A stretch of 64,000 nt of DNA from a virus. Positions within the stretch are counted from its first letter, which is position 1. Each line of letters opens with the position of its first letter. Of the stretch, positions 2,500-55,276 are shown piece by piece. The stretch is from IMG/VR virus record IMGVR_UViG_3300005936_000001, positions 1 to 64,000 of that record; one strand, 5' to 3'. The notes beneath the pieces were generated by a model. It was not told the DNA's origin. It did no database searches and saw nothing but the letters and a program-made list of their open reading frames with translations. Made by a program: the position numbers and the translations under genes.

Positions 2500-3222
2500 A
2501 TGCCTATTCTCAATCCGAATGTGGATATTTATCAGGGAGGACGGGGCTGGGGAATCTACAATTTTGTAGAGTTTATCCCACCCCCTGCGACTCAGTCTTC
2601 AAGTTCTTCCAGCAGTACGGAAGTTCTGACGACTTCTTCCAGTAACTCCAGTAGCTCAAGCTCAAGTAATTCCAGCAGCTCAAACACAAGCAGTTCCAGC
2701 AATTCAAGCTCCAGCAGCTCCAGTTCCAGCAGTTCCAGCAGCTCCAGCAGTACAGAAGCCATGACGACAAGCTCCAGCAGCTCCAGCAGTACAGAAGTAA
2801 TGACGACAAGTTCTTCAAGCAGTACAGTAAACAAGTCATCAAGTTCAAGCTCTTCAAGCAGTACGGAAGAGTTAACCACCAGTTCAAGTTCAAACAGTTC
2901 AAGCAGTACGGAAGTATTAACTACAAGTTCTTCAAGTAATTCCAGTAGTTCCAGCAGTACAGAAGTATTAACCACCAGTTCGAGTTCAAGCAGTAGTTCT
3001 AACTCGTCAAGCAGTTCTTCAAGCAGTCAGAGTTCTTCAAGCAGTACAGAAGCAAGGACTACCAGTTCCAGCGACTCAAGCAGCTCCAGCGAATTCGATG
3101 CTGTTTTAGGTTTGAATGCCGGAGGATCTTTACTGATTAATGCCGGAGGTTTTCTTAAACTCAACAACGAGGATACACTAAGTACTTCCTCGGAAGATAT
3201 AACCAGTTCGAGTACATCTTAA
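2500..3222 (+). CDS. Serine-rich virion-surface protein (240 aa)
   Basis: An N-terminal stretch of about 30 residues (NPNVDIYQGGRGWGIYNFVEF) is followed by about 170 residues that are mostly Ser. The tract is broken by recurrent TEVLTTSS, TEAMTTSS and TEELTTSS motifs. A short C-terminal block (LGLNAGGSLLINAGGFLKLNN) and an EDITSSS tail close the protein. The same interruption pattern recurs in the adhesins at 8299, 14043 and 55277. The short ends suggest an anchor and a small head separated by a flexible, possibly glycosylated stalk. Antisense open frames here are artefacts of the Ser codons. Confidence 0.75.
   Translation: MPILNPNVDIYQGGRGWGIYNFVEFIPPPATQSSSSSSSTEVLTTSSSNSSSSSSSNSSSSNTSSSSNSSSSSSSSSSSSSSSSTEAMTTSSSSSSSTEVMTTSSSSSTVNKSSSSSSSSSTEELTTSSSSNSSSSTEVLTTSSSSNSSSSSSTEVLTTSSSSSSSSNSSSSSSSSQSSSSSTEARTTSSSDSSSSSEFDAVLGLNAGGSLLINAGGFLKLNNEDTLSTSSEDITSSSTS
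2596..3095 (+). repeat. Poly-Ser coding tract (first of several)
   Basis: Low-complexity coding repeat built from AGC/AGT/TCA/TCC/TCT serine codons in short degenerate blocks with periodic TEVLTT-type interruptions. Mixed codon choice means it is not a simple microsatellite, although short runs such as TCCAGCAGC recur. Confidence 0.85.
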
Positions 3223-3237
3223 TAAAAGGATATAGAA

Positions 3238-5415: not shown

Positions 5416-5436
5416 TACCCGGAGAAAGGGAATACA

Positions 5437-6162
5437 ATGAATCCAGCCCATACCTTACCAGAAATGTATCAGAAATTCGGCTTATCAGGTGTAGTTATTC
5501 TGATAGGTATATCTCTTATACTCTTCATGGGATACGAAGTAAGTAAATATTTAATAATCCGGCTTATCGAGAGATACTGGCCCGGACTTAGACCTCGTAA
5601 GAATCCCTTGAAAGCGATATTCTTCGATAAGATGAGTGTGCTTCTGTATTACAAGATTCCCCGGTTTTCAGTTAACTGCCCCCTACGAAGAAAGATATTC
5701 ACGAAGATGCTTCGGATATGTTTCGAGGTATGGCGGTCTGAGGCTCAGGAAAAGGCTGTTGTACAGGAAGTGGATAAGCTGGATTCAGAAAAGTATCTTA
5801 ACTTCTGGAAAAACTTTGTATTCAACACCACAGCTAAGTGGGAAGACGAGGCTGTAAAGCAGGGAATACCTGAAATAGCTGTTTTTAAATACAGGGATAT
5901 TCATCAGAAAAATCTTATAATTATAGAAAATGTAGTCGAACAGATATGTAGTTCAGTAGATGTTTATCGATCAAATGCAGAAAGAACGATTGCTATTCTT
6001 GATTTCATGGCTATATTATTAGACATGGCACTGATGGACGCTGAAAAGACAGTGATGCAGCTTAACGGTGAACTCAGTGAAATAGAATTCGAAGGAGTCA
6101 AGTGTGAAGATTGTGATAACGGCAATTGTGAACACAGGGCTGAAGTAGACTCTAATAAATAG
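5437..6162 (+). CDS. Single-pass membrane protein, unknown function
   Basis: 241 aa with one clear N-terminal transmembrane segment (about residues 17-40, GVVILIGISLILFMGYEV) flanked by a basic stretch (ERYWPGLRPRKNPLK), so the remaining helical domain is likely cytoplasmic. The C-terminus has two Cys pairs (CEDCDNGNC, about residues 225-233), a possible small metal site. A holin-like role is conceivable because a lipoprotein lies nearby, but the long soluble domain is atypical for a holin and no endolysin is recognised in the window. Confidence 0.6.
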   Translation: MNPAHTLPEMYQKFGLSGVVILIGISLILFMGYEVSKYLIIRLIERYWPGLRPRKNPLKAIFFDKMSVLLYYKIPRFSVNCPLRRKIFTKMLRICFEVWRSEAQEKAVVQEVDKLDSEKYLNFWKNFVFNTTAKWEDEAVKQGIPEIAVFKYRDIHQKNLIIIENVVEQICSSVDVYRSNAERTIAILDFMAILLDMALMDAEKTVMQLNGELSEIEFEGVKCEDCDNGNCEHRAEVDSNK

Positions 6163-6172
6163 GAGAAGCAGA

Positions 6173-6949
6173 ATGAAGACAGTTGTACTACTCGGTGATT
6201 TACACGCGGCACATCTTGCGGGATTAACTCCCCCGGGATGGATGGTACGGGCTGAAAGATTCCCTCAAGTCAATCAGATGCAAAATGAGATGTGGAAGTA
6301 CTATAAAGGGTGGGTGAAGAAATATAAGAAGCCTGATCTCCTTATATGTAATGGAGACGCATGCGACGGAAAAGGAAATAAAAGTGGAGGTAACGAATTA
6401 ATAACATCAGATTTACACGAGCAGGCCGATATAGCTGTCTCTGCCCTCGAGATGTGGGACGCGGAAAAGATCGTCATGACTACAGGAACCCGGTACCACA
6501 CAGCGACAGGGTCCGGCGAGGATGTGGAACAGATAATCGCAGACAAACTCGGAGCACAGATATTCGATCATGCGTTTGTTAGGATGGAAGGGCTGTTACT
6601 GGACATCAAACATTTTATAGGAAGTTCCAGTATCCCATGGGGAAGACATTCAGCAGTAGCTAGAGACCGTGTCCAGAATCTACTTTGGCAGGAACAGGAC
6701 GGTCAGCCCAAGTCGGATATCTTCGTCAGATCACATTGTCACTACCATCAATACGCAGGCGGCCCGGGTTGGTTGTCAATGACTCTCCCAGCCCTACAGG
6801 CCCCCGCTACGCGCTTTGGGGCAATGATATGCTCAGGAACCGTAGACTTCGGTATTGTTGTAATGACACTGGATAATGGGAAGATTCTGGAATGGCATCC
6901 GGAGATTATAAGACTTAAAAGTTGTTTCCCGGAAGTCGTAACAGTTTAA
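6173..6949 (+). CDS. Calcineurin-like metallophosphoesterase
   Basis: 258 aa with the metallophosphoesterase blocks in order. These are GDLHAAH near the N-terminus (D-x-H), CNGDACDGKG around residue 60 (GDxxD), TGTRYHTATGSGED around 105 (in the position of GNH[ED]), and a late VRSHCHYHQ (H-x-H) near residue 185. These would supply the two-metal centre. Phages often carry such enzymes. The substrate could be a nucleic-acid end, a cyclic nucleotide or a phosphosugar and cannot be told from sequence. AGGAG precedes the ATG. Confidence 0.75.
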   Translation: MKTVVLLGDLHAAHLAGLTPPGWMVRAERFPQVNQMQNEMWKYYKGWVKKYKKPDLLICNGDACDGKGNKSGGNELITSDLHEQADIAVSALEMWDAEKIVMTTGTRYHTATGSGEDVEQIIADKLGAQIFDHAFVRMEGLLLDIKHFIGSSSIPWGRHSAVARDRVQNLLWQEQDGQPKSDIFVRSHCHYHQYAGGPGWLSMTLPALQAPATRFGAMICSGTVDFGIVVMTLDNGKILEWHPEIIRLKSCFPEVVTV

Positions 6950-6990
6950 AAAAGCATATAATCAGACTATATTAAATACAGGAGCGAAAC

Positions 6991-7995: not shown

Positions 7996-8001
7996 GTAAA
8001 T

Positions 8002-8286
8002 ATGCCTGATTACACAATTAATCCGATAGAACATAATCTCGGGGGAGTAGATACTCCTTACGAGAAATATCATTTAATGGCGTCGGAACATACTGTTGCT
8101 ACCCGACTGGCTACAGCTTCCAGAGAAGGGCTTATGCCTTACGGGCTGTTTGGAACTCTGGAGCTTGTGGGTGTTCCAACACATATGACAGATCCCGGGA
8201 GCATAGGGCAACGGGCGCAGGACGAATATTATATATATTTTTATACAACCGACGGGTGGCGTAGAGCCGAAGCGGAAACTTTTTAA
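8002..8286 (+). CDS. Stand-alone copy of the adhesin attachment domain
   Basis: 94 aa that align end to end with the first 95 residues of the giant adhesin starting at 8299. Both have DY.INP.EH..GG...PYEKYH, a Thr/Arg stretch, GLM, a GQRA..DYY/LYFY block and a final GWRR.E...F. The gene lacks the Ser-rich and lectin parts. It looks like a single attachment (virion docking) domain, possibly a tail-tip ring or stub, or a competitor of the larger protein. A weaker version of the same domain opens the protein at 14043. Confidence 0.7.
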   Translation: MPDYTINPIEHNLGGVDTPYEKYHLMASEHTVATRLATASREGLMPYGLFGTLELVGVPTHMTDPGSIGQRAQDEYYIYFYTTDGWRRAEAETF

Positions 8287-8298
8287 GGAATACCGGCA

Positions 8299-11200
8299 AT
8301 GGCTGATTACGTTATAAATCCTAAGGAACACGATCAGGGGGGCATAAACGTCCCCTACGAGAAATATCACCAGACCCTTGCCCAGACTACTGTTTCTACA
8401 CGAAGAACCACAGCGTTGCTTAACGGGCTTATGTCGCCTACTCTGGCAAAAGCTGTAGAATATACAGATGTTCCGGCATCTATGTCTACAACAGGAGAAT
8501 CCGGACAACGTGCGATAAACGACGATTATCTTTATTTTTACACAGGTGCGGGCTGGCGTAGATCAGAATTAGATATATTCAGACCTTCCAGTTCTTCAAC
8601 CACTTCTGTCTCAAGTTCCAGCAGTTCTACTTCATCTAATTCCAGTTCGTCTACATCCAGTAATTCAAGCAGTTCTAACAGTTCCAGCTCCAGTAGCAGC
8701 AGCCTAAGCTCTTCAAGTAGTAGTACATTAGTTATGACTACTTCCTCGAGTAGTTCAAGTTCATTTAGTTCGAGTTCATCAAGCTCAAGCTCGTCTAATT
8801 CCAGTAGTACTATGAGTGAATCATCAAGTAGCTCCAGTAGTTCAAGTTCAAGTAGCTCCAGTAGTTCGTCTTCTTTGGGAATAACATCATCATCCAGTAC
8901 ATTGGCCTTAACCACATCGTCTAGTTCTTCCAGTCAGTCTTCAGGACAAAGCGAATCAGAAACAAGTCTGTCTGAAAGCAGTAAATCAGAGAGTAGTGTA
9001 AACAGCACTACCAGTACTAGCAGTAGAAGCACAGCTTCCGAGAGCAGCCGTTCGGAAAGTAGTGCTTCGGAAAGCAGTAAGGGGAATAGAAGTACAAGCA
9101 GTCATTCACAGACTTCACCTTCCAGTATCAGCTCAGAGGGAATTATTACAAGTAGTAGCAGTACAAGCAGTGAAGGTGTTATTACCAGTTCCAGTTCTTC
9201 GAGTTTAAGCTCAGAACGTATTACCAGCAGTACCTCAAATATTTTTACAAGTTCAACATCCAGTTCCCAATCTTTTACATCTATTTCCAGTTCCAGTTCA
9301 CGGGGAATTATAACAAGTTCAAGCTCTCAAAGTTCAACATCAGGACAAAGCGAATCAGAAACAAGTCTGTCTGAAAGCAGTAAATCAGAGAGTAGTGTAA
9401 ACAGTTCAAATAGTAGTAGCAGTATAAGTACAGCATCAGAAACAAGCTTATCTGAAAGTAGTAAATCGGAGAGTAGTAAGGGGAATAGAAGTACAAGCAG
9501 TGTTAACAGTACAACCAGTGAGTCTTCATTCAGTTCATCAAGCACTCAATCCCTTACTTCTACATCCAGTTCCAGTTCACGGGGAATTATAACAAGCTCC
9601 AGCAGTTCCAGCACAGAAGTAATGACAACAAGTTCCAGTAGTTCAAGTTCCAGCAGTTCGAGTACAGAAGCTTTAACTACCAGTTCCAGCAACTCAAGTA
9701 GCTCCAGTAGTTCAAACTCTAGTAGCTCAAACAGTTCAAGTTCCAGTAGCTCCAGCAGCTCAAGCTCAAACAGCTCGAGTTCTTCTTCTCCCAGTAGCTC
9801 AAGCAGTTCAGAACGTATAACTAGTAGTACTTCTTCTCCAAGTTCCAGCAGCCCTGTCAGTCATTCTTGGGATGTAGACTATGATTTTAATGATTATGTA
9901 CGTACTATTGTTATTGATGATGCAGGAAATAAGTATATTGGGGGGGTATTTACAACAGTAGATGGACTTACAAGAAATGGAGCTTGTAAGATTAATGTAG
10001 ATGGTAGTATTAGTACCTGGGATCCTAACTGTAATGGCACTGTTTATGCAATAGCTATTGACGGAGGCGATATTTATCTAGGAGGTAATTTTACAACAGT
10101 AGGAGGTACTACTAGAAATAATGTTGCTAAAGTTAATAGTACGGATGGTACTCTCAACGCCTCATGGAACCCTAATTGTAACTCATCAGTTTTAACAATT
10201 ATAACAAATGGAAGTTATATATACATGGGGGGTTCCTTCACTACAGTAGGGGGACTTTCTAAGCCGTATGCAATTAGTGTAAATAATACAAATGCTACTC
10301 ACAATAATAGTTGGCTTCCTGAATGTAATGGTAATGTTTGGGATATGGTTATTGATGGAAGTTATATATACATGGGAGGTGTCTTCACTACAGTAAAAAG
10401 TACCACTAGAAATAGAATTGCTAAAGTTAGCATTACAGATGCTACTCTTGATGCTTCCTGGGATCCTGATTGTAGTAGTACTGTTTATGCAATAGCTATT
10501 GATGGATCAGATTTTTATCTAGGGGGTCAGTTCACTTCAGTAGGAGGAACAACTAGAAATTATGCGGCTAAAGTTAATAATACAGACGGAGCAGTTGATG
10601 CTACGTGGGATCCTGATTGTAATAGTTATGTCTCTTCAGCAGGGGTTGATGGAGATAGCATATACTTAGGAGGTTATTTCACTACAGTAGGAGGTACTAC
10701 TAGAAATTATATTGCTAAAGTAAATAATACGGATGGGACTGCTGAGGGCTCATGGAATCCTAATTGTAATAATTATGTGTATACACTAGCCCTGGATAGT
10801 ATATATGTTTATTTGGGAGGTGCCTTCACTACAGTAGGGGGAGAGAATAAATCTTATTATGTGGCTGTTACTAAGGATAATGCAAGCTCTAGTAGTACAG
10901 AAGTCTTAACAACAAGTAGTAGCTCCAGCTCAGTAGCTCTTACAACAAGCTCAAGTAGTAGTTCCAGTACGGAAGTATTAACGACAAGCTCCAGCTCCAG
11001 CTCCAGTACAGAGGCATTACCGACAAGCTCAAGCTCCAGCCCCAGTACAGAAGTATTAACAACAAGCTCCAGCTCCTCAGAACGTATAACAAGTAGTACT
11101 TCAGAACGTATAACAAGTAGTACTTCAGAACGTATAACAAGTAGTACTTCAAGTGATCACTGGATGGGGGATTATAATTTTAATGGGTCTGTATATACTA

Positions 11201-13932: not shown

Positions 13933-14020
13933 ATAACATAATCAGAAACAATTTAATGCGATTCTTGAAAGAAGAGGACTTACAGCCAATATTAATAGAA
14001 GGCTGTTAATAACATAAAAG

Positions 14021-14034: not shown

Positions 14035-14042
14035 AAATTAAA

Positions 14043-17000
14043 ATGGCTATAAACTTTAAATTACATAAACAAGGCGGATTAAAAGCCGAAAGAGGACATC
14101 TCTCTAAGAACAACTGGGAGAGAGTTCGCAGACGGGCTACTTCCAGTTTAGACGGGTATATGGATGCGGAACAATACCGTAGATGTACTCAGGTGGACCC
14201 CCCTGCCTATTTCGATTCAACAGGTCTGCCGGGACAATGGGCTTTAACAACTGGATATTATTACGAGTGTGTAAACACTGATTCATGGAGAAAGCTTAAA
14301 CTTAATAAATTTTATGAGATGAGTAGTTCCAGCAGTACAGAAGTATTAACAACAAGTTCGAGTAACTCAAGCTCTTCTTCAAGTAGTTCTTCAAGTTCCA
14401 GCAATTCAAGTTCCAGCAGTTCAAGCTCCAGCAGTTCCAATAGTTCAAGTTCAAGCTCTAACAGCTCCAGCTCTAGCTCCAGCAGCTCTAGCTCCAGCAG
14501 TTCTAGTAGTAGTTCCAATCCTTTAAGTACTAGCTCCAGTAGCTCGAATAGTTCTTCAAGTTCAAGCAGTTCAAGTAGTTCAAGCAGTTCAAGCAGTTCA
14601 TTAGGAATAACAAGTTCAAGCAGTTCAAGCAGTTCAAGTAGTTCAAGCAGTTCATTAGGAATAACAAGTTCAAGCAGTTCAAGCAGTTCATTAGGAATAA
14701 CAAGTTCAAGCAGTTCAAGCAGTTCATTAGGAATAACAAGTTCAAGCAGTTCATTAGGAATAACAAGTTCAAGCAGTTCATTAGGAATAACAAGTTCAAG
14801 TTCCAGTAGCTCCAGCACCAGTTCTGAAAGAATCACAAGTAGTACAAGCAGTTCAAGTTCCAGTACCAGTTCAGAAGGATTCTCAGCCAGTGAAAGTAGC
14901 TCAAGCACTCCTTCCTCGGAACGTATAACAAGTAGTACTTCCTCGGAAGGTATAACAAGCAGTACTTCCTCGGAAGGTTTAACAAGTAGTAGTTCTCCTG
15001 CTGATGATACATGGACTGCTAATAATCTAACACTTCAACCATTTGATTCAAGTTTAGTGACATATTGGAATCTTGAAGATGTAGAGGATTCTTTTGCTTC
15101 TCATACATTAACAAATAATAGTTCTGTATCTTTTGCAAATGCTGGGATTCATGATAATTGTGCTACAACCTCCGGGGCAAATTGGTTATCAGTAGCTAAT
15201 CATGCAGATTTTCAATTTGGAACTGGTGATTTTGCTATTAGTATATGGATTCACCCAGAATCAACAGCAAATGGTAATTTCTTTTTAGGAATAACTAATA
15301 CCAATGAGCTTGGTTTGCTTTGTTTTGTTGAAAATACCACTTTAAAATGCTTTCTTGGTAATGGAACTTGGGCCCAGGGAAGCGCAGTAAGTGCAGTTAC
15401 TCAAAATGTATGGAATCACTTAATGTTGTACAGAGAATCTGGAACCTATAAAGTAAGGGTTAACGATGTTGAAAAAATATCGTTTGTTTTTGGTGGAGCA
15501 TTTGACGACACAGATGCTCCTTTAACTTTAGGTAAGTGGGATTTTACATCTGAATATTTTACAGGTAAAATAGACGAAGTGTCGATATGGAAAGGAAGCC
15601 CGCTTGATACTAATTCACATACAGCCCTATATAACTCAGGAACAGGTTCCTACTATAAAGGTCCTGCTTACAGTTCTAGCTCTTCTTCGGAAGGTATAAC
15701 AAGTAGTAGTAGTTCTTCGGAAGGTATAACAAGTAGTAGTAGTTCTTCGGAAGGTATAACAAGTAGTAGTTCTCCTGCTGATGATACATGGACGGCTAAC
15801 GATGCTATACTTAGACCGCTGGATAGTGATATGGTAGCGTATTGGAAAGCTGAAGATTTAACTGATTCTGTTAATAGTCATACGCTTACGAATGTCAATT
15901 CAACTACATTTACCGCAGGGAAACATAATAATGCATTCACACTAAACGGCTCAACACAATATCTATACACCGCAGATGCCGCAGACCTACGATTCGGAAC
16001 TGGGGATTTTACCATTTCAACATGGTTCTATATGGATGAATTGCCTACAGCAGACCCTTACAGCGCATATATCTCTGGAATTTATAACAAATGGTATAAT
16101 GATGCAACTAATGAAAATGGATATGCTTTATTAATTATCAATGGTAATACTACGCCAGTCATGTCATTTTCTTATTATAATGCTGGATTTGTCGGTGTTT
16201 CATCATCAACTGAAATATTAGTTGATACGTGGTATCATACTGTAGTGACGAGGGTCTCAGGGACAATTACTATTTATGTCAATGCGGTAGCAGGCAGTAG
16301 TCCACTAAGTTTTTCAGGTAATTTGGGGGATAGTGGCAGAGCTTTTGAATTGGGAACACAGTATGTATCAAACACTAGAAGCAGATTGTTAAATGGGCAA
16401 ATAGACCAGCTCTCTATTCACAAGGGGCATGGAATGTCCTTAACAGAAGTACAAGCATTATATAATTCTAATACAGGTTCCTACTATAAAGGTCCTGCTT
16501 ACAGTTCTAGCTCTTCCTCAGAAGAAATAACAAGTAGCACTTCTAGCAGTTCAGAAGGTATAACAAGCAGTACTTCAAGTACCTCGGAAGGTATAACAAG
16601 CAGTTCCATCTCAAGCGACAATCCAGAGTCGCAACATTGGACAGCTAATGGAAATATTCTAGGTAGATTAAATGATGACATGGTAGCATACTGGAAAGCT
16701 GAGGATATAGAGGATTCGATTAATAGCCATACACTTACAAATGTTGGGTCTGCAACATACACATCAGGAAAACATAATAATGCATTTACATTGAATGGCA
16801 GCAGTCAATATTTGAATGTTGCGTCAAGCGGCTTATTACCAGGAACCGGTGATTTCACTTACTCGTTTTGGGTATATCCAACAGTAAATGCTACAGTAAT
16901 CATGTTTGCAACTGATTCAGCTTCTTACGGTGGGTTTTATATAGCAATGGTGGCTTTAAAAATTGAAGTTGCCACATCTGCCGCCGCATCAGCACCTTGG

Positions 17001-17360
17001 CACACTGTTACAAGTACAGGATCAGTAACGCTAAGTGCATGGAACCATGTTGTATTGACCAGAATAGGGTCAACTCTTTACTTATATTTAAATAATTCTA
17101 GCGATTCTATTTCCGACTCTGATAATATTACAACTGCAAAAGACCTTTATATTGGAGCCAACCCCGGTGGTAATAATGTGACTGGTCAAATGGACGAAGT
17201 AGGCGCATGGATAGGACACGGCATGTCACAAGCAGAAGTTCAAGCACTTTATAATTCCGCAACCGGTGCATACTGGATAGACCATGCTATAAGTAGCTCT
17301 TCTTCAGAAGAAATAACAAGCAGTACTTCAGACACAATATCCAGTTCCACTATAACTTAA
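14043..17360 (+). CDS. Modular adhesin with three LamG/concanavalin-like domains
   Basis: 1105 aa. Residues 1-93 are a diverged attachment domain (LHKQGGLKAERGHL... SWRKLKLNKF). A Ser linker with LGITSSS and EGITSS repeats follows to about 318. Then come three homologous lectin-like domains at about 321-543, 580-820 and 862-1083. Each begins W-T-A-N-x4-L-x-x-L/F-D, then VAYWKAED.xDS..SHTLTN, with an internal GTGDF.IS.W..P strand, WNH/WYH, and an ending EV.ALYNS.TG.YY. This is the standard LamG layout for glycan binding. No Shine-Dalgarno site is visible; a palindrome takes its place. It is the last adhesin before the glycosyltransferase island. Confidence 0.8.
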   Translation: MAINFKLHKQGGLKAERGHLSKNNWERVRRRATSSLDGYMDAEQYRRCTQVDPPAYFDSTGLPGQWALTTGYYYECVNTDSWRKLKLNKFYEMSSSSSTEVLTTSSSNSSSSSSSSSSSSNSSSSSSSSSSSNSSSSSSNSSSSSSSSSSSSSSSSSSNPLSTSSSSSNSSSSSSSSSSSSSSSSSLGITSSSSSSSSSSSSSSLGITSSSSSSSSLGITSSSSSSSSLGITSSSSSLGITSSSSSLGITSSSSSSSSTSSERITSSTSSSSSSTSSEGFSASESSSSTPSSERITSSTSSEGITSSTSSEGLTSSSSPADDTWTANNLTLQPFDSSLVTYWNLEDVEDSFASHTLTNNSSVSFANAGIHDNCATTSGANWLSVANHADFQFGTGDFAISIWIHPESTANGNFFLGITNTNELGLLCFVENTTLKCFLGNGTWAQGSAVSAVTQNVWNHLMLYRESGTYKVRVNDVEKISFVFGGAFDDTDAPLTLGKWDFTSEYFTGKIDEVSIWKGSPLDTNSHTALYNSGTGSYYKGPAYSSSSSSEGITSSSSSSEGITSSSSSSEGITSSSSPADDTWTANDAILRPLDSDMVAYWKAEDLTDSVNSHTLTNVNSTTFTAGKHNNAFTLNGSTQYLYTADAADLRFGTGDFTISTWFYMDELPTADPYSAYISGIYNKWYNDATNENGYALLIINGNTTPVMSFSYYNAGFVGVSSSTEILVDTWYHTVVTRVSGTITIYVNAVAGSSPLSFSGNLGDSGRAFELGTQYVSNTRSRLLNGQIDQLSIHKGHGMSLTEVQALYNSNTGSYYKGPAYSSSSSSEEITSSTSSSSEGITSSTSSTSEGITSSSISSDNPESQHWTANGNILGRLNDDMVAYWKAEDIEDSINSHTLTNVGSATYTSGKHNNAFTLNGSSQYLNVASSGLLPGTGDFTYSFWVYPTVNATVIMFATDSASYGGFYIAMVALKIEVATSAAASAPWHTVTSTGSVTLSAWNHVVLTRIGSTLYLYLNNSSDSISDSDNITTAKDLYIGANPGGNNVTGQMDEVGAWIGHGMSQAEVQALYNSATGAYWIDHAISSSSSEEITSSTSDTISSSTIT
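14330..15000 (+). repeat. Poly-Ser tract with near-perfect LGITSS repeats
   Basis: Between about 14590 and 14800 the unit TTCATTAGGAATAACAAG plus varying numbers of TTCAAGCAG recurs six times almost without change, so this expansion is recent. It encodes SSSLGITSSSS modules. Confidence 0.85.
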
Positions 17361-17400
17361 CTAACTTAATTGGAGAACTTCAGGAGGCTCGTAGACTGTA

Positions 17401-18393
17401 ATGGAAAGAGGAATTGTTTTTTATATAGCGGGATTTGGAATCAACTATCTTATTCCAACAGCCCTTCTAACCTTAAGAAGGCACTACAAGGGCCCCATCT
17501 GTTTTATAACAGACCCTGGCTTCTCACCTATTATCACAGCCCGGATAAACGAGCTCCCCGATACATTCTGTATAGAGGACGAGCTAAGGCACGGGCTGGG
17601 TCTTAAACGTATAGACCTGTGGTGCAGGAAAGCTTACCACCACATAGACCAGTATCCTTTCGATGTAAACCTGTATTACGATCTCGACCATATCTGGATG
17701 TCTGAATTCGATTATTCTATATTTGACCTTATAGAGAAGCACGGGCTGGTATGCACTTCCGCTAACAATACTCCGGGACAATGCAGTAGAAAGAAAAGAG
17801 AGGCTGAGAAATGTATAGGGGAGAAACTGCCTTTCTTCCACGCTATCAACGGAGGGTGCGCGGGGGCTGTAAAGAAATCCGATCAGGCGTATATGTGGAC
17901 GGATATGATAAGTAAGACCTATAAGAACAACTACCTGCACAGAAACCCCGAAGAGTTCGCGATGTGTATCCTTAAAGCACAGGGGCATGCAGGGACAGCC
18001 TCCTATCATTGGAGCATGCCTATTAACTCTAAATTCATAAAAGATGGAATAAATACAAAAAATCTCAATTCACCTCTTGCAATTCACTGTGTACGTGGTA
18101 CATTTAATAAGCTGAAAATGTGGCGTGATATATGTCAGGAAGCTTTAGAGAATGATTTCATGGGTTTTCATACATATTACACTGAATATAACAAGGCCGG
18201 TAATAAAACGGTACAAAAACTTTACAGGGGAATTGAGAATGTCAGAAACAAAAGGTGTGATATATCTAAGTCAGGGAACGAAGTGTGTGACAAGGGCGCT
18301 TGTATCGATCTACTCCCTCCGACAGCATTATCAGGGTCCGATAACTGTACTCACAGTAGCGACTCAACCGGAGTGGTTACCGGGTCTTCTTAA
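17401..18393 (+). CDS. Glycosyltransferase-like protein (GT-A/GT8-like)
   Basis: 330 aa. The N-terminus (IVFYIAGFGINYLIPTALLTLRRHYKGP) matches the start of the next protein (VIYLSQGTKCVTRALVSIYSLRQHYQGP), so the two are tandem paralogues. FDVNLYYDLDHIWM supplies a D-x-D at the expected place, and HAINGGCAGAVKKSD resembles the N-T/G-G-x-x-G loop of GT8-like enzymes. A nucleotide-sugar transferase is likely. The donor is unknown. The last 155 bases overlap the next gene in another frame, and that tail looks like unselected sequence, so the stop may have been lost or a frameshift may have occurred. AGGAGG lies 13 bases before the ATG. Confidence 0.6.
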   Translation: MERGIVFYIAGFGINYLIPTALLTLRRHYKGPICFITDPGFSPIITARINELPDTFCIEDELRHGLGLKRIDLWCRKAYHHIDQYPFDVNLYYDLDHIWMSEFDYSIFDLIEKHGLVCTSANNTPGQCSRKKREAEKCIGEKLPFFHAINGGCAGAVKKSDQAYMWTDMISKTYKNNYLHRNPEEFAMCILKAQGHAGTASYHWSMPINSKFIKDGINTKNLNSPLAIHCVRGTFNKLKMWRDICQEALENDFMGFHTYYTEYNKAGNKTVQKLYRGIENVRNKRCDISKSGNEVCDKGACIDLLPPTALSGSDNCTHSSDSTGVVTGSS

Positions 18394-19738
18394 AGAATTT
18401 AACTGCGATATGCTGGAACTTGAAAACAACGGAACCAGACCTCTGGTCCGTAAAGCTCAGCTCTGGCGTAATACTCCCTACGACCTTACCTTATTTTTAG
18501 ATGCCGACACACTTGTTGTCGCTCCTATAGACGAATACTTCGATAAAATCAAAGAGTACACTTTCTGCACAGGGGAATTTGCGGGCTGGAAGACTAAGGG
18601 CGGTACTATGAGTAAGCGTATCCGGAGTTTCGGAAAGCTTGTACCGGATTATGTTAAACCGGCTCTCGAATACGGTAAAGCCACTAACACAGGAATATTC
18701 GGATTTACAAGAGATGCCGCTATCCTGGAAGAGTGGGAATGGATAACCCGCGAGGGGGCTCAGTATAACCGTATCCCCGACGAGGTAGGCTGTCAGATGC
18801 TTCTTCCTCGATATAAACATTGGCTTGCTCCTGTACAGTGGGGTGTCAGTGTTAAGATGTCTACAGAGAAACATTACGAAGATATGAAGATAGTTCACTA
18901 CCACGGCAGGAAACATGCCGGAGAGTGGGAGCTGTGCGCTCTGTGGAAACAGGCTTACTGGGGTCTTCGTAATAACCATCCGGACTATGCAGGTCCTCTG
19001 GGACAGGGGCTGGGGGACAGGAGATTTACCAGATATATTAAAGCTATCAACAAAAAAGATGTTACTGTCGTATCTGCAGTCAATCAGAAGTATCTCCCTA
19101 AACTCAAACATAATTATCCTATGTGGATGAAGACAGAAGGTATTATGGAACATCCTATGATACTTTTCGTAAATGGAGTAACCGAAGAAGACCTTTCCTT
19201 CCTTAATAGAAACGTAAAAATAATTCAATGGGATATGCCCGAGGCTGCTAATACAAGAGAACTTATGTTGAGTGCTTTTGTATTCGGAACAGCAGAACAT
19301 GTCACTTCGAAGTATTGGTTGAAAGTGGATTGTGATACAACCCCTAAACCTCTTCCGGGATATGCATTCGGATATAAATTAATCCTTCCCGAAAAGGCCT
19401 GGTCGAAATCTATTGTCGGACATAGATGCGGATACACTAAAAGTAAGAAGGGATATGTTAAAAAACATTTCTTAAATATACTCGATGAATGGTGGAAAGA
19501 TAAGATGGGAGAAGAACCTATATTTCCACTGGATATACCTTATAAAAGTAGACACGGTCATAAGAGGCTTGCTTCTTATATATGTCTTCATAAGTCGGAG
19601 TTTGTCCGTAAATGCGCTTCTTTATTCGGAGACAGACTCCCGGTACCCAGCCATGATACAACCCTATGGTATATGGCTGAAAGAATGTCGGACGAATCAT
19701 GGGGCAGAATGAACTTTAAAAAACATTTTCAACCATAA
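18239..19738 (+). CDS. Two-domain glycosyltransferase-like protein
   Basis: 499 aa from the ATG at 18239. An earlier start at 18152 has no ribosome site and lies deep in the previous gene. Domain 1 (about 1-270) has LWRNTPYDLTLFLDADTLVV, with the D-x-D metal/nucleotide-sugar motif, followed by ATNTGIFGFTRD and a late HYHGRKHAGEW. Domain 2 (about 280-499) opens VTVVSAVNQKYLPKLKHNY and contains KYWLKVDCDTTPK, a second D-x-D-like motif. Two GT-A-like modules in one chain would allow sequential sugar transfer. It is part of a run of carbohydrate genes inside the structural region. Confidence 0.65.
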   Translation: MSETKGVIYLSQGTKCVTRALVSIYSLRQHYQGPITVLTVATQPEWLPGLLKEFNCDMLELENNGTRPLVRKAQLWRNTPYDLTLFLDADTLVVAPIDEYFDKIKEYTFCTGEFAGWKTKGGTMSKRIRSFGKLVPDYVKPALEYGKATNTGIFGFTRDAAILEEWEWITREGAQYNRIPDEVGCQMLLPRYKHWLAPVQWGVSVKMSTEKHYEDMKIVHYHGRKHAGEWELCALWKQAYWGLRNNHPDYAGPLGQGLGDRRFTRYIKAINKKDVTVVSAVNQKYLPKLKHNYPMWMKTEGIMEHPMILFVNGVTEEDLSFLNRNVKIIQWDMPEAANTRELMLSAFVFGTAEHVTSKYWLKVDCDTTPKPLPGYAFGYKLILPEKAWSKSIVGHRCGYTKSKKGYVKKHFLNILDEWWKDKMGEEPIFPLDIPYKSRHGHKRLASYICLHKSEFVRKCASLFGDRLPVPSHDTTLWYMAERMSDESWGRMNFKKHFQP

Positions 19739-19748
19739 AGGAAAAGTA

Positions 19749-20963
19749 ATGGATAAGAATCTATCAAAACAAGGAAACAAGATGCAGACTCGCTATTCTA
19801 TGATTACGAGAATAAGCGATCTGGAGGTCTGTAAGGAGATTGTCAAGGGAGTTGGTAAATACTCCCCCGAGATACTGGAGTCTAATGAATACGACGCCCT
19901 ACAGCGCTTAAACGGCTTAAAAGGGCTGCAACAGCTTTGGCTCCCCTACTCTACCAGAATATATACAGCATATGCAGGAGAACCTATCACTAAGGGCTGT
20001 CTATCACACAGCGATGCTAAGAAACAATTGGAAAATATTTTCAAATCTTTACAGAAAGTAAAGATGATACATAGAGATATAATTCCTAGAAATATAGTGG
20101 TACTGAATGGGAAACTTACTCTACTTGATTTTACATGGGCTTATTTTAAGGGCTGTATATTCAAGAGTATCGAGGACTTTCCTAAACATCTGGGCAGAGG
20201 ATATAAAGCTAAGGGTAAATTTGATGATGAATATTCTCTGAATAAGATTCTGGAAAACTTCTTTCCTAAAGATAAGGAACTGGATAAAATACGTAATAAG
20301 ATTAAAAAGATAGGAGTAGGGGAGTATAAGGATGGAAACTCTACGAAAGTCGGATACACCTGTCAACCTATACCTTTCGCTCCGCTGGATAGAGAGATTC
20401 CTTATCATAAAAAACAGTGTATCTCTGAGTATCAGCTTATCAAAGACGATCTGATAAAGACAGAGGTCGATCCAGCATGGGTTCTGGATATAGGTTCTAA
20501 TATCGGATACATCTGTTTTAAATTCGCAGAGGATTTTAAAACAGGAGTTATAGGTATCGAAAAGGATGAGCCCAGCTGGTCTGTAGCAAAGAGTCTTGTA
20601 GATTACTATGAGGTTCCCGATGTCAGTTTCCTTAACGGGGATTCATTGGAATACGTCCATAATATGGACCACAAGGTTGATGTCGCTATCATGCTGAATG
20701 TACATATGTGGATATGGAAACAGCACGGAGAAGAAAAGGTTAAAGAGATGATGCGGGAGTTGTCGGAGAAAGTGGGAGTTCTGTATTTTCAGACAGCCCA
20801 TAAAGAATCCGGGGGAATGTTCATTCTTAAACATCTTAAGAACGCTCGGGATATCGAAGGGTATTTAAAAGAGTGTGGATTCGGTAATGTTAAAAAGATC
20901 AATGTCACCAAAGGACATAGAGGAAAACGGATCATGTACAGATGTAGTAAGGAGGCTGTATGA
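19749..20963 (+). CDS. Kinase-like / SAM methyltransferase fusion
   Basis: 404 aa. Residues 1-190 look like a compact protein-kinase-fold domain: KMIHRDIIPRNIVVLNGKLTLLDFTWA gives the catalytic H-R-D-x4-N loop and a D-F metal motif (DFT in place of DFG), as in small lipopolysaccharide-kinase-like proteins. Residues about 230-404 form a Rossmann methyltransferase: WVLDIGSNIGYICF (SAM motif I), GIEKDEPS (motif II acidic residue), FLNGDSLEY, then AIMLNVHMW. The E. coli chain-length regulator WbdD also joins a methyltransferase to a kinase, in the opposite order. Capping of a glycan by methyl and phosphate is a reasonable guess. It overlaps the next gene by ATGA. Confidence 0.65.
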   Translation: MDKNLSKQGNKMQTRYSMITRISDLEVCKEIVKGVGKYSPEILESNEYDALQRLNGLKGLQQLWLPYSTRIYTAYAGEPITKGCLSHSDAKKQLENIFKSLQKVKMIHRDIIPRNIVVLNGKLTLLDFTWAYFKGCIFKSIEDFPKHLGRGYKAKGKFDDEYSLNKILENFFPKDKELDKIRNKIKKIGVGEYKDGNSTKVGYTCQPIPFAPLDREIPYHKKQCISEYQLIKDDLIKTEVDPAWVLDIGSNIGYICFKFAEDFKTGVIGIEKDEPSWSVAKSLVDYYEVPDVSFLNGDSLEYVHNMDHKVDVAIMLNVHMWIWKQHGEEKVKEMMRELSEKVGVLYFQTAHKESGGMFILKHLKNARDIEGYLKECGFGNVKKINVTKGHRGKRIMYRCSKEAV

Positions 20964-21652
20964 ACATATCAGTAGTCATACCTACAATAAATAGAGTGGA
21001 TCTTCTTAAGGAATGTCTGGAACCTCTGGTCAGGAACAGAGAAGTATTCCAGCACATTCTAATAGTGGATAACGGCAAACAGGATATATCTGATCTGCCT
21101 AATATACATACTAATAGTATACTCCTCACAACAACATCCAGAAATCTCGGAGCGGGCGGAAGCTTCAATCTGGGATTTAATGTTATGAAGAGGGAAGCGG
21201 ACTGGGTTCTTTTACTGAACGACGATATTGTGTTATCCGACGAAACAGTAGTAGCCCTCCCAGCCCTGTTAGAAAAGTATGCTGATAAATGGTTACTGGT
21301 AGGGACATGTTCCTACTGTTCGTTTGCAGTGAACGTGGAGTGTCTGGAGCATATGGAGTACGACGAGGGGCTGTACTTTGATGAAGCATTCTATCCGGCA
21401 TACTGTGAAGATGTGGATTTTGAATGGCGGATGAAGCTTATTGATAAATCTAAGATTGTAAAAAATCTGAAAGGGCTGGACCCTGCTGTATATCGCAGGA
21501 AGGGAAGCTCTTCTAAAGATCCGTCTTTAAGGAAATACGGTAAAGTACGGAAGTATTTTGTAGAGAAGTGGGGCGGAGGACCCCGACATCCTAAATACAA
21601 AATACCTTTCAACGGTAAACGGGAATGGCCAGAGAAAATAACAAAGGAGTAA
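20960..21652 (+). CDS. Family 2 glycosyltransferase
   Basis: 230 aa with the classical GT2 opening MNISVVIPTINRVDLLKECL, a strand ILIVDNGK, then NLGAGGSFNLGF and DWVLLLNDDIVLSDE carrying the acidic nucleotide-sugar motif (N-D-D). AYCEDVDFEWRMKL follows, where GT2 enzymes place their catalytic base (E-D-x-D). This is most like rhamnosyl- or galactofuranosyl-type enzymes. It is shorter than many GT2 proteins and has no membrane segment, so it is probably a soluble cytoplasmic transferase acting with its neighbours. Confidence 0.8.
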   Translation: MNISVVIPTINRVDLLKECLEPLVRNREVFQHILIVDNGKQDISDLPNIHTNSILLTTTSRNLGAGGSFNLGFNVMKREADWVLLLNDDIVLSDETVVALPALLEKYADKWLLVGTCSYCSFAVNVECLEHMEYDEGLYFDEAFYPAYCEDVDFEWRMKLIDKSKIVKNLKGLDPAVYRRKGSSSKDPSLRKYGKVRKYFVEKWGGGPRHPKYKIPFNGKREWPEKITKE

Positions 21653-21656
21653 TAAA

Positions 21657-22046
21657 ATGAATGTGATATATCAACTGTATAATAGAATGAATCAACCTAT
21701 AAAGTATAAAGGACAGTTAAATAAAGGGGATATTGTTTTTACTACTAATACAGATAGATCACACCCTTTTTCAGTTATGAGTCTTAAAGTAAATACAGGA
21801 ATCATTAAGGGGGAGAATGAAAGTTATAACATAATGTTTAAAGAAGGAACGGGCTGGCGTTTAGAAAACTATTGGATTGATACATCTGGTTGGAATAATA
21901 TAGTTACTCCACCGACATTTAACTATGACTTTAATAATACCACTATTACTTATAGCACCTCTGTTATGGCTACCACCCAATATACTAATCCGAATTATAC
22001 AACGGCGCACGTAGCCCCGACATACGTCGCCACCACTGCAAGCTAA
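21657..22046 (+). CDS. Hypothetical 129-aa protein, possible fibre accessory
   Basis: Beta-like N-terminal part (YQLYNRMNQPIKYKGQLNKGDIVF) ending in FKEGTGWRLENYWI, faintly like the G-x-GWRR-x-E end of the adhesin attachment domain. The last 40 residues are Thr/Asn/Tyr rich. It lies between two glycosyltransferase genes and could be an acceptor or a small virion protein. I cannot assign it. Confidence 0.55.
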   Translation: MNVIYQLYNRMNQPIKYKGQLNKGDIVFTTNTDRSHPFSVMSLKVNTGIIKGENESYNIMFKEGTGWRLENYWIDTSGWNNIVTPPTFNYDFNNTTITYSTSVMATTQYTNPNYTTAHVAPTYVATTAS

Positions 22047-22057
22047 AGGAATTTGAG

Positions 22058-22804
22058 ATGAATAAACACATAATGGTCTGTGTACAATGCCATTTCTACC
22101 AGAGGCGTCTGTGCTGGATGCTTTCGTCGATGATGCAGCAGGATCTTCCGGAAGATATGCATATATCTATGTCGGTAGCCTATGTATCCGGAACAGGGAA
22201 TCCTGAAACAGAGGCTGTTATCGATACATTCCGAAAAGAAGGAATGGATGTAAGGGGAGTACCTTATCCGAATATAGACGAATTTCAATACAGGGGCTGG
22301 ACACGTAATAAACAGCTGGATGAATGTGATGCAGATTGGATTCTATTCGCTGACTGTGATATGGTGTATCCGCCTAACTTCTTTAAAGTAATGTACGAAC
22401 AGCTTAATCTGGATAAGTATAAGGATAACCCGCATTGCTTACATAGTCGGAGATTCTCAACAACTCTCGATGAAACAGAGGCCTTGGTAAATAAATATAA
22501 ATACCCCTGCGTTATTCCAGATACGTGTGGGCAGATAAAGGTATTACCGGGGAAGAAGAAATCTAATATAGGGGCTGGGTTCTGTCAGCTTGCTAATGTA
22601 GAAATATTAAAGAATAGTAAACATCCCTGGTATTGTGTTCCGGGGAAGAAGATCGATTACTCTTATTCTAAATATCATAAGACAAAATCAGATATGCATT
22701 TTCGACGCAGATTGAAATCGGAGAAAATTCCATTACCCTTGCAATATCATGCACAGCACGTTCGATCAAATACAAACAAAAAACAGATATATACACAAAG
22801 GTAA
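22058..22804 (+). CDS. Glycosyltransferase (GT-A type)
   Basis: 248 aa. The beginning HIMVCVQCHFYQRRLCWMLSSMM resembles GT2-like enzymes that start V-x-x-x-F-x-R-x-x-x-x-x-L-x-S-x-x. RGWTRNKQLDECDADWILFADCDMVYPPNFF contains a substrate loop (RNxxLD) and the D-x-D motif (DCD). GAGFCQLANVEILK fits the acceptor loop. A clear Shine-Dalgarno AAAGGAA precedes it. This is another member of the island, probably transferring one sugar to the same or a sequential acceptor. Confidence 0.7.
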   Translation: MNKHIMVCVQCHFYQRRLCWMLSSMMQQDLPEDMHISMSVAYVSGTGNPETEAVIDTFRKEGMDVRGVPYPNIDEFQYRGWTRNKQLDECDADWILFADCDMVYPPNFFKVMYEQLNLDKYKDNPHCLHSRRFSTTLDETEALVNKYKYPCVIPDTCGQIKVLPGKKKSNIGAGFCQLANVEILKNSKHPWYCVPGKKIDYSYSKYHKTKSDMHFRRRLKSEKIPLPLQYHAQHVRSNTNKKQIYTQR

Positions 22805-22808
22805 ATAA

Positions 22809-23381
22809 ATGAAGATACCGATAGGAATAACAGGAGGACTAGGGGCCGGTAAAGATACACTGGCTGATTTCTTAATTAAACAGGTTCCGGAGATGTTTCA
22901 TAAATATTCGTTCGCCAAACCTATTAAGGATATAGCGAGAACATTCGGATTTACAGAAAATCAACTATATGTTCTGGAAGATAAACAGAGAGTGGATGAT
23001 TTCTGGGAAATTACTCCTAGAGAGTTTCTGCAGAAAGTGGGGACGGAATTATTTCGGGATAATTTCAGGCAGGATGTATGGATTAAATTCGCGGAAAAAG
23101 AATTAAGAGAACATTCTGATAAACATCTTCTGATACCGGACACACGCTTCCCTAACGAAGCTGAATTTATACATAAACACGGAGGGATGATTATAAAGAT
23201 AGTTCGTAATACAGGAGACTATATGGAAAGTAGAAAACATGTTAGTGAGGATGGGCTGGATGAAGACTTGATCGATCTGACAGTTGATAATAATGGATTG
23301 ATGAATCTTTTATCAGGGGTAGCTTTTGAAATAAGTGGTTTTATTAAACAAAAGGAAATGAAAGATGGCACGGATGCTTAG
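22809..23381 (+). CDS. Deoxynucleoside monophosphate kinase-like protein
   Basis: 190 aa with a P-loop at the N-terminus (ITGGLGAGKDTLADFL, G-x4-GKD/T). YSFAKPIKDIARTFGF and TPREFLQKVGTELFRDNFRQDVW follow, as in T4 gp1-type dNMP kinases, then IPDTRFPNEAEFI with the D-x-R-F-x-N-E block. It would phosphorylate dNMPs for phage DNA synthesis. Its location among glycosyltransferases is notable because T4 uses the same enzyme to feed a hypermodified base that is later glucosylated. Its end overlaps the next gene by 17 bases. Confidence 0.8.
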   Translation: MKIPIGITGGLGAGKDTLADFLIKQVPEMFHKYSFAKPIKDIARTFGFTENQLYVLEDKQRVDDFWEITPREFLQKVGTELFRDNFRQDVWIKFAEKELREHSDKHLLIPDTRFPNEAEFIHKHGGMIIKIVRNTGDYMESRKHVSEDGLDEDLIDLTVDNNGLMNLLSGVAFEISGFIKQKEMKDGTDA

Positions 23382-24360
23382 TTTACAAAAAGACAAAAAC
23401 GATGATACTCAACTACGACACGGGTACGAAAGACACGAGGGTACAGATGTGGGTGATATAACAGCTAATGGAACGTATATGTTCGGACAGGTTTGTCCTT
23501 ACTTCTTTACTAGAGAAGGTAACACTATGTTCCTTGATGGGATGTATAGAGGGTCGACCTGCTTTCTTATAGGTGGAGGACCCAGCCTGCTTAAAGAGGA
23601 TTATCTTAAATTACATAATCCCGGAATACTTACGTTCGGGATGAATAACAGTTCTAAACTTATAAGACCTAATATGTGGTCGAGTGTTGATGACCCTTCC
23701 AGGTTTATCTATTCAACATGGATAGATCCTAAGATAATGAAGTTCATACCTCAGGCGGCTTTTACTAAACCTCTGTGGAAATCTACATTCGTTGATGGAA
23801 AACAAATGTGGGAAGAAGCTTCTATTAAAGTAGGGGATTGTCCTAATGTAGTAGGTTTCCGGCGTAACGAAAAGTTTCAACCGCATCGCTTCCTGACAGA
23901 AGATACAATCAACTGGGGCTGTCATAAGAAGTACGGAGGGTGTCGTTCAGTAATGCTGTCCTCTCTGAGAATCATGTTTATTCTGGGAATACGCAGAGTA
24001 TTTCTGGTGGGAGTAGATCTTAAAATGGATACAGAGCATAAATATTCATTTAACGAAGGTCGTACTAAGGGAGCTATTAAAAATAATAACAGTACATACA
24101 AGCGGATGCTTACAGAATATTTTCCGGCACTTAAACCTGAGTTCGATAAATGGGGCTTCGAAGTATACTGCTGTAATAAAGAAAGCGATGTCTGTAAAAC
24201 ATTTCCACATGTTTCTTTCGAAGATGCTATTAAGACAGCGTCCGGAGAACTGGGTGATGTCGATAAAGAAAAGACGGAGGGTATGTATCTTAAGCTGGAA
24301 GAAAAGCGTAAGAGAGGTGATTGGGAGAACTGTGCCAAGGCTACGGAAGCTATCAAGTAG
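23365..24360 (+). CDS. GGGPSL-motif protein (DUF115 / sialyltransferase-like)
   Basis: 331 aa. STCFLIGGGPSLLKEDYLKL matches the G-x-G-P-S-L nucleotide-binding signature shared by Cst-type sialyltransferases and the DUF115/MAF group. GILTFGMNNSSKLIRPNMWSSVDD continues the Rossmann-like fold. GCRSVMLSSLRIMFILGIRRVFLVGVDL is the second half, ending in a G-x-D-L strand. A CMP-sugar or other nucleotide-sugar transferase acting on glycans or protein is likely, in line with the neighbours. The last 50 residues are a charged helix. The specific activity is unknown. Confidence 0.6.
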   Translation: MARMLSLQKDKNDDTQLRHGYERHEGTDVGDITANGTYMFGQVCPYFFTREGNTMFLDGMYRGSTCFLIGGGPSLLKEDYLKLHNPGILTFGMNNSSKLIRPNMWSSVDDPSRFIYSTWIDPKIMKFIPQAAFTKPLWKSTFVDGKQMWEEASIKVGDCPNVVGFRRNEKFQPHRFLTEDTINWGCHKKYGGCRSVMLSSLRIMFILGIRRVFLVGVDLKMDTEHKYSFNEGRTKGAIKNNNSTYKRMLTEYFPALKPEFDKWGFEVYCCNKESDVCKTFPHVSFEDAIKTASGELGDVDKEKTEGMYLKLEEKRKRGDWENCAKATEAIK

Positions 24361-24391
24361 TTGTATTATTCCAAACTTAGTGTTATTGTAA

Positions 24392-24407
24392 AGTCTATGA
24401 TTAGACT
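24392..24407. promoter_or_regulatory. Inverted repeat AGTCTA-TGAT-TAGACT
   Basis: Six-base perfect arms with a 4-base spacer, 17 bases before the ATG of the B12/radical SAM gene. The arms equal the outer arms of the 18-bp palindrome after the same gene (25687-25704). A weak promoter-like TTGTAT-N17-TATTGT lies at 24361-24389. Confidence 0.45.
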
Positions 24408-24424
24408 GTAAAGGATTGACAAAA

Positions 24425-25684
24425 ATGACTATTAATTTAATCCATCCACCGCATTATGATTGTACAGATGATAGGCTCGATCCGCCACTTGGGTTGTTAC
24501 ACCTTGCGCGGGCGTTAAAGATATATAGTAAGGCCGATGTATATATCTCTGACTTATCAGGAGTAAGAGACAATCAGGAGATAGATATTAAGTATGCTAA
24601 TATCTATGGTATAACGGTCTACTGTGCTACTCTGGACACTACGAGATATATTATCGACGAGTGTAAGGAAATTAATCCAGATTCCAAGATTGTCGTAGGT
24701 GGTGCACATGTAACAGGGCTGGACATGGATATCCCCGACGTGGATCATTACGTCAAGGGATACGGGGAAATGCCTTTAGCGGCAATTGCTAATAAGCACA
24801 AAGTTAATGACATTATACTAGGCGATAAGATAATAGATCTGCAAACACCGCTTGATTGGTCTATGGTGGACGTTAACAGCTATTCGAGAGTTATCGCGGG
24901 TAGGAAGTCGTTACCTCTATTAACAAGTCGGGGATGCCCTTATAAGTGTGCATTCTGCGGGTTGAATAGCATGCACAAGATATGTAATAAGGTTAGATTT
25001 CTGGATATCGATAACATTAAGATGGAAATCAGAGCTATTAAGAGCGCAGGAATAAATGCCCTTAATATACAGGATGATATATTTACGCTTAAACTCGATA
25101 GAATGAAACAGATCTGTGAATACATCAAGGAACTCGGCATGGTGTTCAGATGTATGGGACGGGCTGGTAATGATACAGAAGAAACATATAAGGTATTAGC
25201 TGATTCAGGATGTCAGGGAGTAGCCTGGGGTATCGAGTCCGGAAGTCAGATGATATTGGATAGAATGAATAAAGAGGTTACAGTAGAGCAGAATAAAGAA
25301 GTGATTTCATGGTGTAAGAAGTATGGTATGGATTCCAGAGGATTCTTTATTTTGGGATTTCCCGGGGAGACCCGAGAGACGATTGAAGAAACAAAGCAAT
25401 TTATCATTGATGCAGACCCAGATCAATATTTTGTCAGCAACTTCATTCCGTATCCGGGAACAGATGTATATGAAAACCCATACAAATATGGTATAACTCA
25501 AATGAGTTATGATTTCAGTCAGTATTATCAAGTCGATAAAGACGGATATGGAGGGGCTGTTATTGATACTAAGTGGATGAATAAAGAAGAGTTTTCCGCT
25601 AATGAATGCGGACTAAGAGAGTGGTTAAAGGAAAATAAAGAAATGTCGGGAAAGAATATACAGCGATATGAGGAAGATAAATAA
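24425..25684 (+). CDS. B12-binding-domain radical SAM protein
   Basis: 419 aa from the ATG with AAAGGA ten bases upstream. A TTG nine bases earlier is too close to that site. The N-terminal about 150 residues have the cobalamin-binding Rossmann pattern (PPLGLLHLARALK, IYGITVYCATLD, KIVVGGAHVTG, YVKGYGEMPL). The radical SAM core follows with TSRGCPYKCAFCGL (CxxxCxxC for the 4Fe-4S cluster), then GVAWGIESGSQ and GFFILGFPGET. Class B enzymes of this type methylate unactivated carbons of sugars, peptides or phosphinates. In this neighbourhood a glycan or peptide-modifying role is plausible. It is flanked on both sides by related inverted repeats. Confidence 0.8.
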   Translation: MTINLIHPPHYDCTDDRLDPPLGLLHLARALKIYSKADVYISDLSGVRDNQEIDIKYANIYGITVYCATLDTTRYIIDECKEINPDSKIVVGGAHVTGLDMDIPDVDHYVKGYGEMPLAAIANKHKVNDIILGDKIIDLQTPLDWSMVDVNSYSRVIAGRKSLPLLTSRGCPYKCAFCGLNSMHKICNKVRFLDIDNIKMEIRAIKSAGINALNIQDDIFTLKLDRMKQICEYIKELGMVFRCMGRAGNDTEETYKVLADSGCQGVAWGIESGSQMILDRMNKEVTVEQNKEVISWCKKYGMDSRGFFILGFPGETRETIEETKQFIIDADPDQYFVSNFIPYPGTDVYENPYKYGITQMSYDFSQYYQVDKDGYGGAVIDTKWMNKEEFSANECGLREWLKENKEMSGKNIQRYEEDK

Positions 25685-55275: not shown

Positions 55276-55276
55276 T

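Follow-up and report, generated by a model that had tools for sequence, protein, structure and literature searches.

The window analysed here covers positions 1-64,000 of an IMG/VR phage record (G000) of 185,256 bp. An independent 50-kb contig, 100% identical to the record, spans its two ends with an overlap of 110 bp, and the genome is therefore effectively complete. In the 185-kb record we counted 194 non-overlapping ORFs of at least 90 aa. Single-protein scans of viral contigs for near relatives returned only a 5-kb fragment (L015) and the same-phage 50-kb contig. All genes between 1346 and 31377 are encoded on the + strand, neighbours being separated by short gaps or overlapping, and an island of enzyme genes (17401-25684) sits between the adhesin genes and the tail sheath gene.

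Four proteins, all encoded on the + strand, contain Ser runs of more than 6 residues, as does no further ORF of the record. gp2500 (2500-3222; 240 aa) has 117 Ser (49%), a longest run of 16, and Ser tracts at aa 26-202 followed by a C-terminal tail at 224-240. In gp8299 (8299-13932; 1877 aa; 514 Ser, 27%; longest run 18), an N-terminal domain, two blocks of DUF5122 beta-propeller and two similar C-terminal domains are separated by Ser tracts at aa 92-525, 860-955, 1287-1391 and 1562-1674, with a last tract (1848-1877) forming a Ser-rich C-terminal tail. gp14043 (14043-17360; 1105 aa; 290 Ser, 26%; longest run 18) combines an N-terminal domain and Ser tracts with three Laminin_G_3/ConA-like domains, and gp55250 (55250-57892, although the start may be 55277; 880 aa; 241 Ser, 27%; longest run 21) has a repeated leucine-rich-like C-terminal domain. 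The Ser tracts of the adhesins alternate with beta-propeller, LamG-type and other modules, some of them in tandem, and a Ser-rich tail terminates each of the four proteins. A domain of ~95 aa, probably a virion anchor, is common to the N-termini of gp8299 and gp14043 and to the free-standing gp8002 (8002-8286; 49% identity to the gp8299 N-terminus).

Ser-rich sequence is also found on other proteins. The paralogues gp179747 and gp180377, just outside the window, have Ser-rich C-terminal tails and adjoin the major head/capsid gene, a position from which they are presumably virion proteins. The tail sheath gp28639 (28639-31377; phrog_2839) has a Ser-rich insert inside, and a conserved structural-region protein, gp26923 (26923-27933), has a short Ser-rich stretch. 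Amongst homologues of the sheath, the insert is present in the distant relative G065 and absent in G070. The sheath relatives Arash and D181 have no annotated glycosyltransferase (GT) near the sheath, most of their genes being without annotation.

One alternative is that the Ser tracts act as flexible linkers that carry no modification, as in marine bacterial carbohydrases, and that any nearby GTs act on something else. In Saccharophagus and Teredinibacter, polyserine linkers are known to separate functional domains, and they average 39-44 residues with about 80% Ser (PMC2386152, PMC2699552); their functional significance is called unknown in PMC2699552. As in those enzymes, long, nearly pure Ser lies between folded modules here: the majority of the poly-Ser in gp8299, gp14043 and gp55250 joins two such modules. 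However, the tracts of this phage are far longer, a GT cassette is nearby, and the C-terminal tails and the sheath insert cannot be linkers as they join nothing. Since a search that starts from a GT alone also returns to Ser-rich proteins (below), we consider a pure linker role unlikely.

The tracts are interrupted by a recurrent motif. E-x-[ILM]-T-[ST]-[ST] occurs 52 times, compared with a mean of 0.6 and a maximum of 4 in 500 within-tract shuffles; gp2500 alone holds seven copies of E-x-[IL]-T, and a variant, S-LGIT-SS, contributes additional copies. This agrees with the first-pass annotation, which had recognized the Ser-rich proteins at 2500, 8299, 14043 and 55277 and their shared motif. 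It had also suggested that the motif may be a recognition site for glycosylation, and that suggestion we rejected as unsupported. Interruptions of another kind (L, E, R, CR and others) are seen in other poly-Ser phages, Ser tracts elsewhere in this genome lack the motif, and it is limited to this phage and one relative; the tracts of G065 carry SLGITSS and D/E-V-L-D-Y-S variants. At the DNA level, the Glu codon of the motif is GAA in 52/52 copies (background 66%, p = 7e-10), the remaining motif codons are likewise biased, and identical stretches of 24-29 bp are common to different genes, exceeding synonymous shuffles, whereas the modules share at most 13 bp. The copies are in part DNA-level duplications, and they are better explained by a repeat specific to this lineage, some of whose spread came from duplication, than by a general recognition site.

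Taken further, the same codon bias and shared identities, along with the tandem copies of beta-propeller, LamG and C-terminal modules, could mean that both tracts and motif exist mainly at the DNA level, as short shared repeats for duplication and recombination of adhesin modules. Yet the Ser codons alternate between AGY and TCN above chance (z = 7), which would hinder exact repeats, and neither the link to GT genes nor the differently interrupted Ser tracts of other genes would be explained. As the main account of the tracts we find this scarcely credible; as a contribution to their spread, it is compatible with glycosylation.

The first-pass annotation had also described GT-like genes, a kinase-methyltransferase and a B12/radical SAM enzyme near the Ser-rich proteins, and these do form a co-directional island. 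gp17401 (17401-18393) is a putative GT with a DLD motif; it has no family match of its own and is tied to gp18239 solely via one shared relative. gp18239 (18239-19738), which overlaps the end of gp17401, is a two-domain GT8/glycogenin-like GT whose own family match is weak and whose homologues contain a GT. gp19749 (19749-20963) is a fusion of kinase-like and methyltransferase halves, the latter weakly similar to WbdD. gp20960 (20960-21652) is a GT2 enzyme (PF00535, 1e-10) without a membrane segment, and has other, distant matches in phage records. Downstream are a small Thr-rich protein, gp21657 (21657-22046), with paralogues elsewhere in the genome; a GT2-like enzyme, gp22058 (22058-22804; 2e-5); a T4-gp1-like deoxynucleoside monophosphate (dNMP) kinase, gp22809 (22809-23381); a Maf_flag10/Cst-II-like GT, gp23365 (23365-24360); and a B12-binding radical SAM enzyme, gp24416 (24416-25684), closest to the PhpK methyltransferase subfamily but under its cut-off. 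The kinase at 22809, like the shared N-terminal domain and the Ser tracts on gp179747, gp180377 and gp28639, was missing from the earlier annotation. gp18239, gp22058 and gp23365 are, in this order, the members of what we call the cassette. gp21657 and its small paralogues at 130549, 130840 and 165886 have in common a motif resembling QPI-x-x-KGQ-x-x-KGD. In the 5-kb relative L015, neither a gp19749-like kinase-methyltransferase nor a gp24416-like B12/radical-SAM enzyme is visible.

Rather than modifying the Ser tracts, island enzymes of these types could have as their late target the host surface or a different virion protein, and adjoin the adhesins simply because surface-interaction genes cluster. 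Phages often carry GT and methyltransferase genes as accessory genes, WbdD acts on O-antigen, and the Thr-rich gp21657 lies inside the island. Against this, no strongly hydrophobic segments were found in the island proteins, and the island has neither the membrane-bound GTs nor the flippase of Gtr-type serotype conversion. The lack of membrane segments in the GTs fits cytosolic acceptors. As the Ser-rich neighbours of the cassette also turn up again in phages, in prophage-like loci and in Rhs loci of bacteria, we regard action on the host surface or another virion protein as quite improbable.

The dNMP kinase, which sits among the GTs both here and in L015, raises the question of whether these enzymes modify phage DNA, one of the two alternatives offered by the first-pass annotation, the other being modification of host glycans. 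T4-type DNA glucosylation involves a dCMP/dUMP hydroxymethylase, and the thymidylate-synthase/hydroxymethylase family (PF00303) is absent from the genome in a search with working controls. Nor was there a dNMP-kinase homologue in the cassette regions read in the phages G005, G025, G056, G065 and G070. DNA modification is consequently a very unlikely role for the island.

By profile matches, gp23365 is MptE/Maf-like and sialyltransferase-like. Its own match to Maf_flag10 (PF01973) scores 16.3 bits, under the curated cut-off of 34.6, but Maf_flag10 is matched at E <= 0.05 by 7/8 members of the gp23365 family. CST-I is weakly matched by two of the eight, and the best PDB profile match of the family is Cst-II, again weak (E about 0.02). 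Structure models had no usable confidence (pLDDT 30 for gp23365 and 36 for gp17401). Flagellin receives O-glycans on Ser/Thr from Maf enzymes, whose Maf_flag10 domain is structurally similar to Cst-II (PMC11339370). gp23365 has weak but repeated matches to Maf_flag10 and Cst-II, and Ser/Thr would be its acceptor too; unlike Maf, it falls under the Pfam cut-off, is phage-encoded, and neighbours Ser-rich virion or Rhs proteins instead of flagellins.

The cassette was found in other phages, all of them contigs obtained solely through poly-Ser DNA patterns. All three genes are present in G005, G056, G065 and G070, and G025 has a partial cassette with homologues of gp18239 and gp23365 only. Through shared structural genes, G065 and G070 are distantly related to this phage; G005, G025 and G056 had no kinship to it in any test made. 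In G005, the three homologues are in the same order and directly follow two Ser-rich LamG-like adhesins. In G025, a tail operon contains the gp18239 halves and gp23365 together with a protein that has a poly-Ser C-terminal tail; by eye, the same cluster includes KdsB-like and sulfotransferase-like genes. In G056, the cassette is 4 kb away from a 26-kb run of Ser-rich genes. This 476-kb phage has more than 12 Ser-rich genes at 212003-237902; an N-terminal domain is common to many of them, and some are LamG-like. In G065, the gp23365 homologue is followed after 0.65 kb by a homologue of gp179747/gp180377 with a Ser tail. The gp23365-family profile gave strong matches in G056, G065 and G070, compared with no match in 28 control contigs. 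The cassette was present in 5/47 poly-Ser contigs and 0/28 controls (p = 0.09). Searches with gp17401, gp18239, gp22058 and gp23365, using several family members as query (tblastn for the latter three), gave no match in 50,697 records of isolated phages.

Poly-Ser ORFs are widespread in viral contigs. One viral ORF (L024, 3-6389) encodes 2129 aa of which 1751 are Ser (82%), with Glu interruptions at regular spacing. A pre-specified test with GT2 only showed no association with poly-Ser (presence, p about 0.6-1; proximity, P 0.12-0.20), and we therefore abandoned the idea that poly-Ser is simply accompanied by GT2. A Pfam scan of the neighbours of poly-Ser genes indicated GT9, GT4 and GT2. Any of these three families was present in 28/47 non-redundant poly-Ser contigs and in 6/28 controls (p = 0.001; p = 0.014 when restricted to contigs of 10-75 kb), and they were closer to poly-Ser genes than expected (P = 0.03; P = 0.008 for contigs of at least 40 kb). 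We take this as moderate evidence, because GT4 and GT9 were added only after the neighbour scan and several of the GT9 proteins are mutually related. All three families are missing from about 40% of the poly-Ser contigs, many of these being fragments, so poly-Ser alone does not require them, a point in favour of a linker role. Four poly-Ser contigs (L061, L063, L086 and L142) encode related GT4-matching proteins of ~800-900 aa; for three of these proteins, scanning the whole sequence also gave GT9 matches.

A cleaner comparison starts from the GT, since the cassette phages had been chosen for poly-Ser. Scanning GTDB genomes with the gp23365 family gave four close matches (L271-L274), and a Ser-rich ORF (at least 12 Ser in 20 aa) was near the GT in all four; comparison stretches from the same genomes had none among 525 ORFs. 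Two are Verrucomicrobia loci with Rhs-like proteins and two are prophage-like loci of Phycisphaerae with a tape-measure-like neighbour. Two weak matches (L275 and L276) had no Ser-rich ORF. Extending the search to 392 genomes from a single phylum yielded eight new loci, six of which have a Ser-rich ORF in the 20-kb stretch (directly adjacent in five), compared with 0/12 same-genome stretches (p = 7e-4). Combined, a Ser-rich ORF was found at 10/12 loci and at 0/44 same-genome comparison stretches. The loci represent few lineages and belong mostly to one Phycisphaerae type; collapsed to lineages, the figure is 3/4 (p = 2e-4). At one locus (L323), gp18239-like genes are also present, beside an Rhs protein. 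Overall, gp23365 is the cassette enzyme that most consistently adjoins Ser-rich proteins. In two of the bacterial family members (L271, 9707-11593; L272, 9701-11626), the C-terminal domain looks by eye like a 2OG-Fe(II) oxygenase.

Because the same enzymes adjoin unrelated Ser-rich proteins in other phages and in bacteria, this phage most likely sugar-coats its own particles. Comparative genomics gives good support to the idea that the neighbouring GTs modify the Ser-rich virion proteins. The specific mechanism that we favour, and consider probable on genomic grounds, is that the Ser tracts serve as O-glycosylation acceptor zones on exposed virion proteins and are modified in the cytosol by the gp18239-gp22058-gp23365 cassette. 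The virion O-glycosylation system proposed in the first-pass annotation is thereby strengthened by the GT/Ser-rich linkage in phages, bacteria and prophage loci and by the Maf/Cst-II likeness, and loses the role given to the motif. The acceptor zones would be the stalks and tails of the adhesins, the tails of the capsid-region proteins and the loop in the tail sheath, and the cassette, part of a late operon, would act before or during assembly. Of these enzymes, gp23365 is the strongest candidate for direct transfer onto Ser; gp18239, gp22058, gp20960 and perhaps gp17401 may start or extend the glycan, and gp19749 and gp24416 may cap or vary it. The Ser tracts, enzyme families, gene order and recurrent linkage are direct observations; a glycan on Ser as the product, the order of these steps, the donor sugars, and any role in shielding or adsorption are what we infer.

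This arrangement shares features with known glycosylation systems. In Gram-positive SRRP/GspB-type glycoproteins, Ser-rich adhesins with a signal peptide and wall anchor adjoin GT genes that include GtfA/GtfB-type GT4 enzymes. Here too, Ser-rich adhesins are beside GT genes, but they are virion proteins: no signal peptide or wall anchor is visible on inspection of the four Ser-rich sequences, and GT4 (PF13692) had no match in the genome with controls working. In mycobacteriophages, whose GTs are phage-encoded, capsid and tail tube subunits reportedly bear glycans at their C-termini (Freeman et al. 2023, cited via PMC12619734). The likeness lies in phage-encoded GTs and hydroxyl-rich extensions of virion proteins, here the Ser-rich C-terminal tails on capsid-region proteins and, in G025, the poly-Ser tail of the tail-operon protein. 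The differences are that the putative acceptors here are pure Ser tracts on adhesins, capsid-region proteins and sheath, and that the cassette is Maf/Cst-II-like.

More broadly, Ser tract and cassette may together be a transferable protein-modification module, in which a Ser tag of low complexity marks any protein for cytosolic glycosylation. Such a module would be common to unrelated phages, prophage-like loci and bacterial Rhs loci and would here coat adhesins, capsid-region proteins and sheath; we give this wider proposal about an even chance. Phage virion glycosylation is itself already known (cited in PMC12619734), and the present case may add a wider module common to bacteria. Environmental phages repeatedly carry very long Ser tracts, for which the literature searched states no role. 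If they are glycosylation tags, they would supply the acceptors and enzymes of phage coat glycosylation beyond the mycobacteriophages, with a cassette open to testing, a possible shield or adsorption modifier, a small system for cytosolic sugar-tagging of proteins, and a candidate function for the Ser-rich bacterial Rhs proteins that adjoin the same enzymes.

Several features outside the window are recorded here for completeness. Two adjacent proteins (64165-64984) open with MKNRxxFVSNSSSSSFI. At least 12 structural-region proteins encoded between 144898 and 172344 (for example at 144898, 145252, 146540, 151672, 165206 and 171296) start with M-[ND]-K-[LIT]-A-[FY]-Y-x-G-Y-M-x-K-x-A or a near variant, perhaps a targeting or propeptide signal. 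An adenylosuccinate synthetase-like gene (120668-121789) is nearer to the PurA than to the PurZ model, and NAD salvage-like genes (124468-127824) encode an NMN adenylyltransferase/Nudix protein and, by eye, a nicotinamide phosphoribosyltransferase. A terminase-like gene (69758-73060) has, by eye, an intein-like insert. Finally, stretches of an RNA polymerase beta-like protein (159210-165206) match other families and a LAGLIDADG model, and these extra stretches are possibly inteins.
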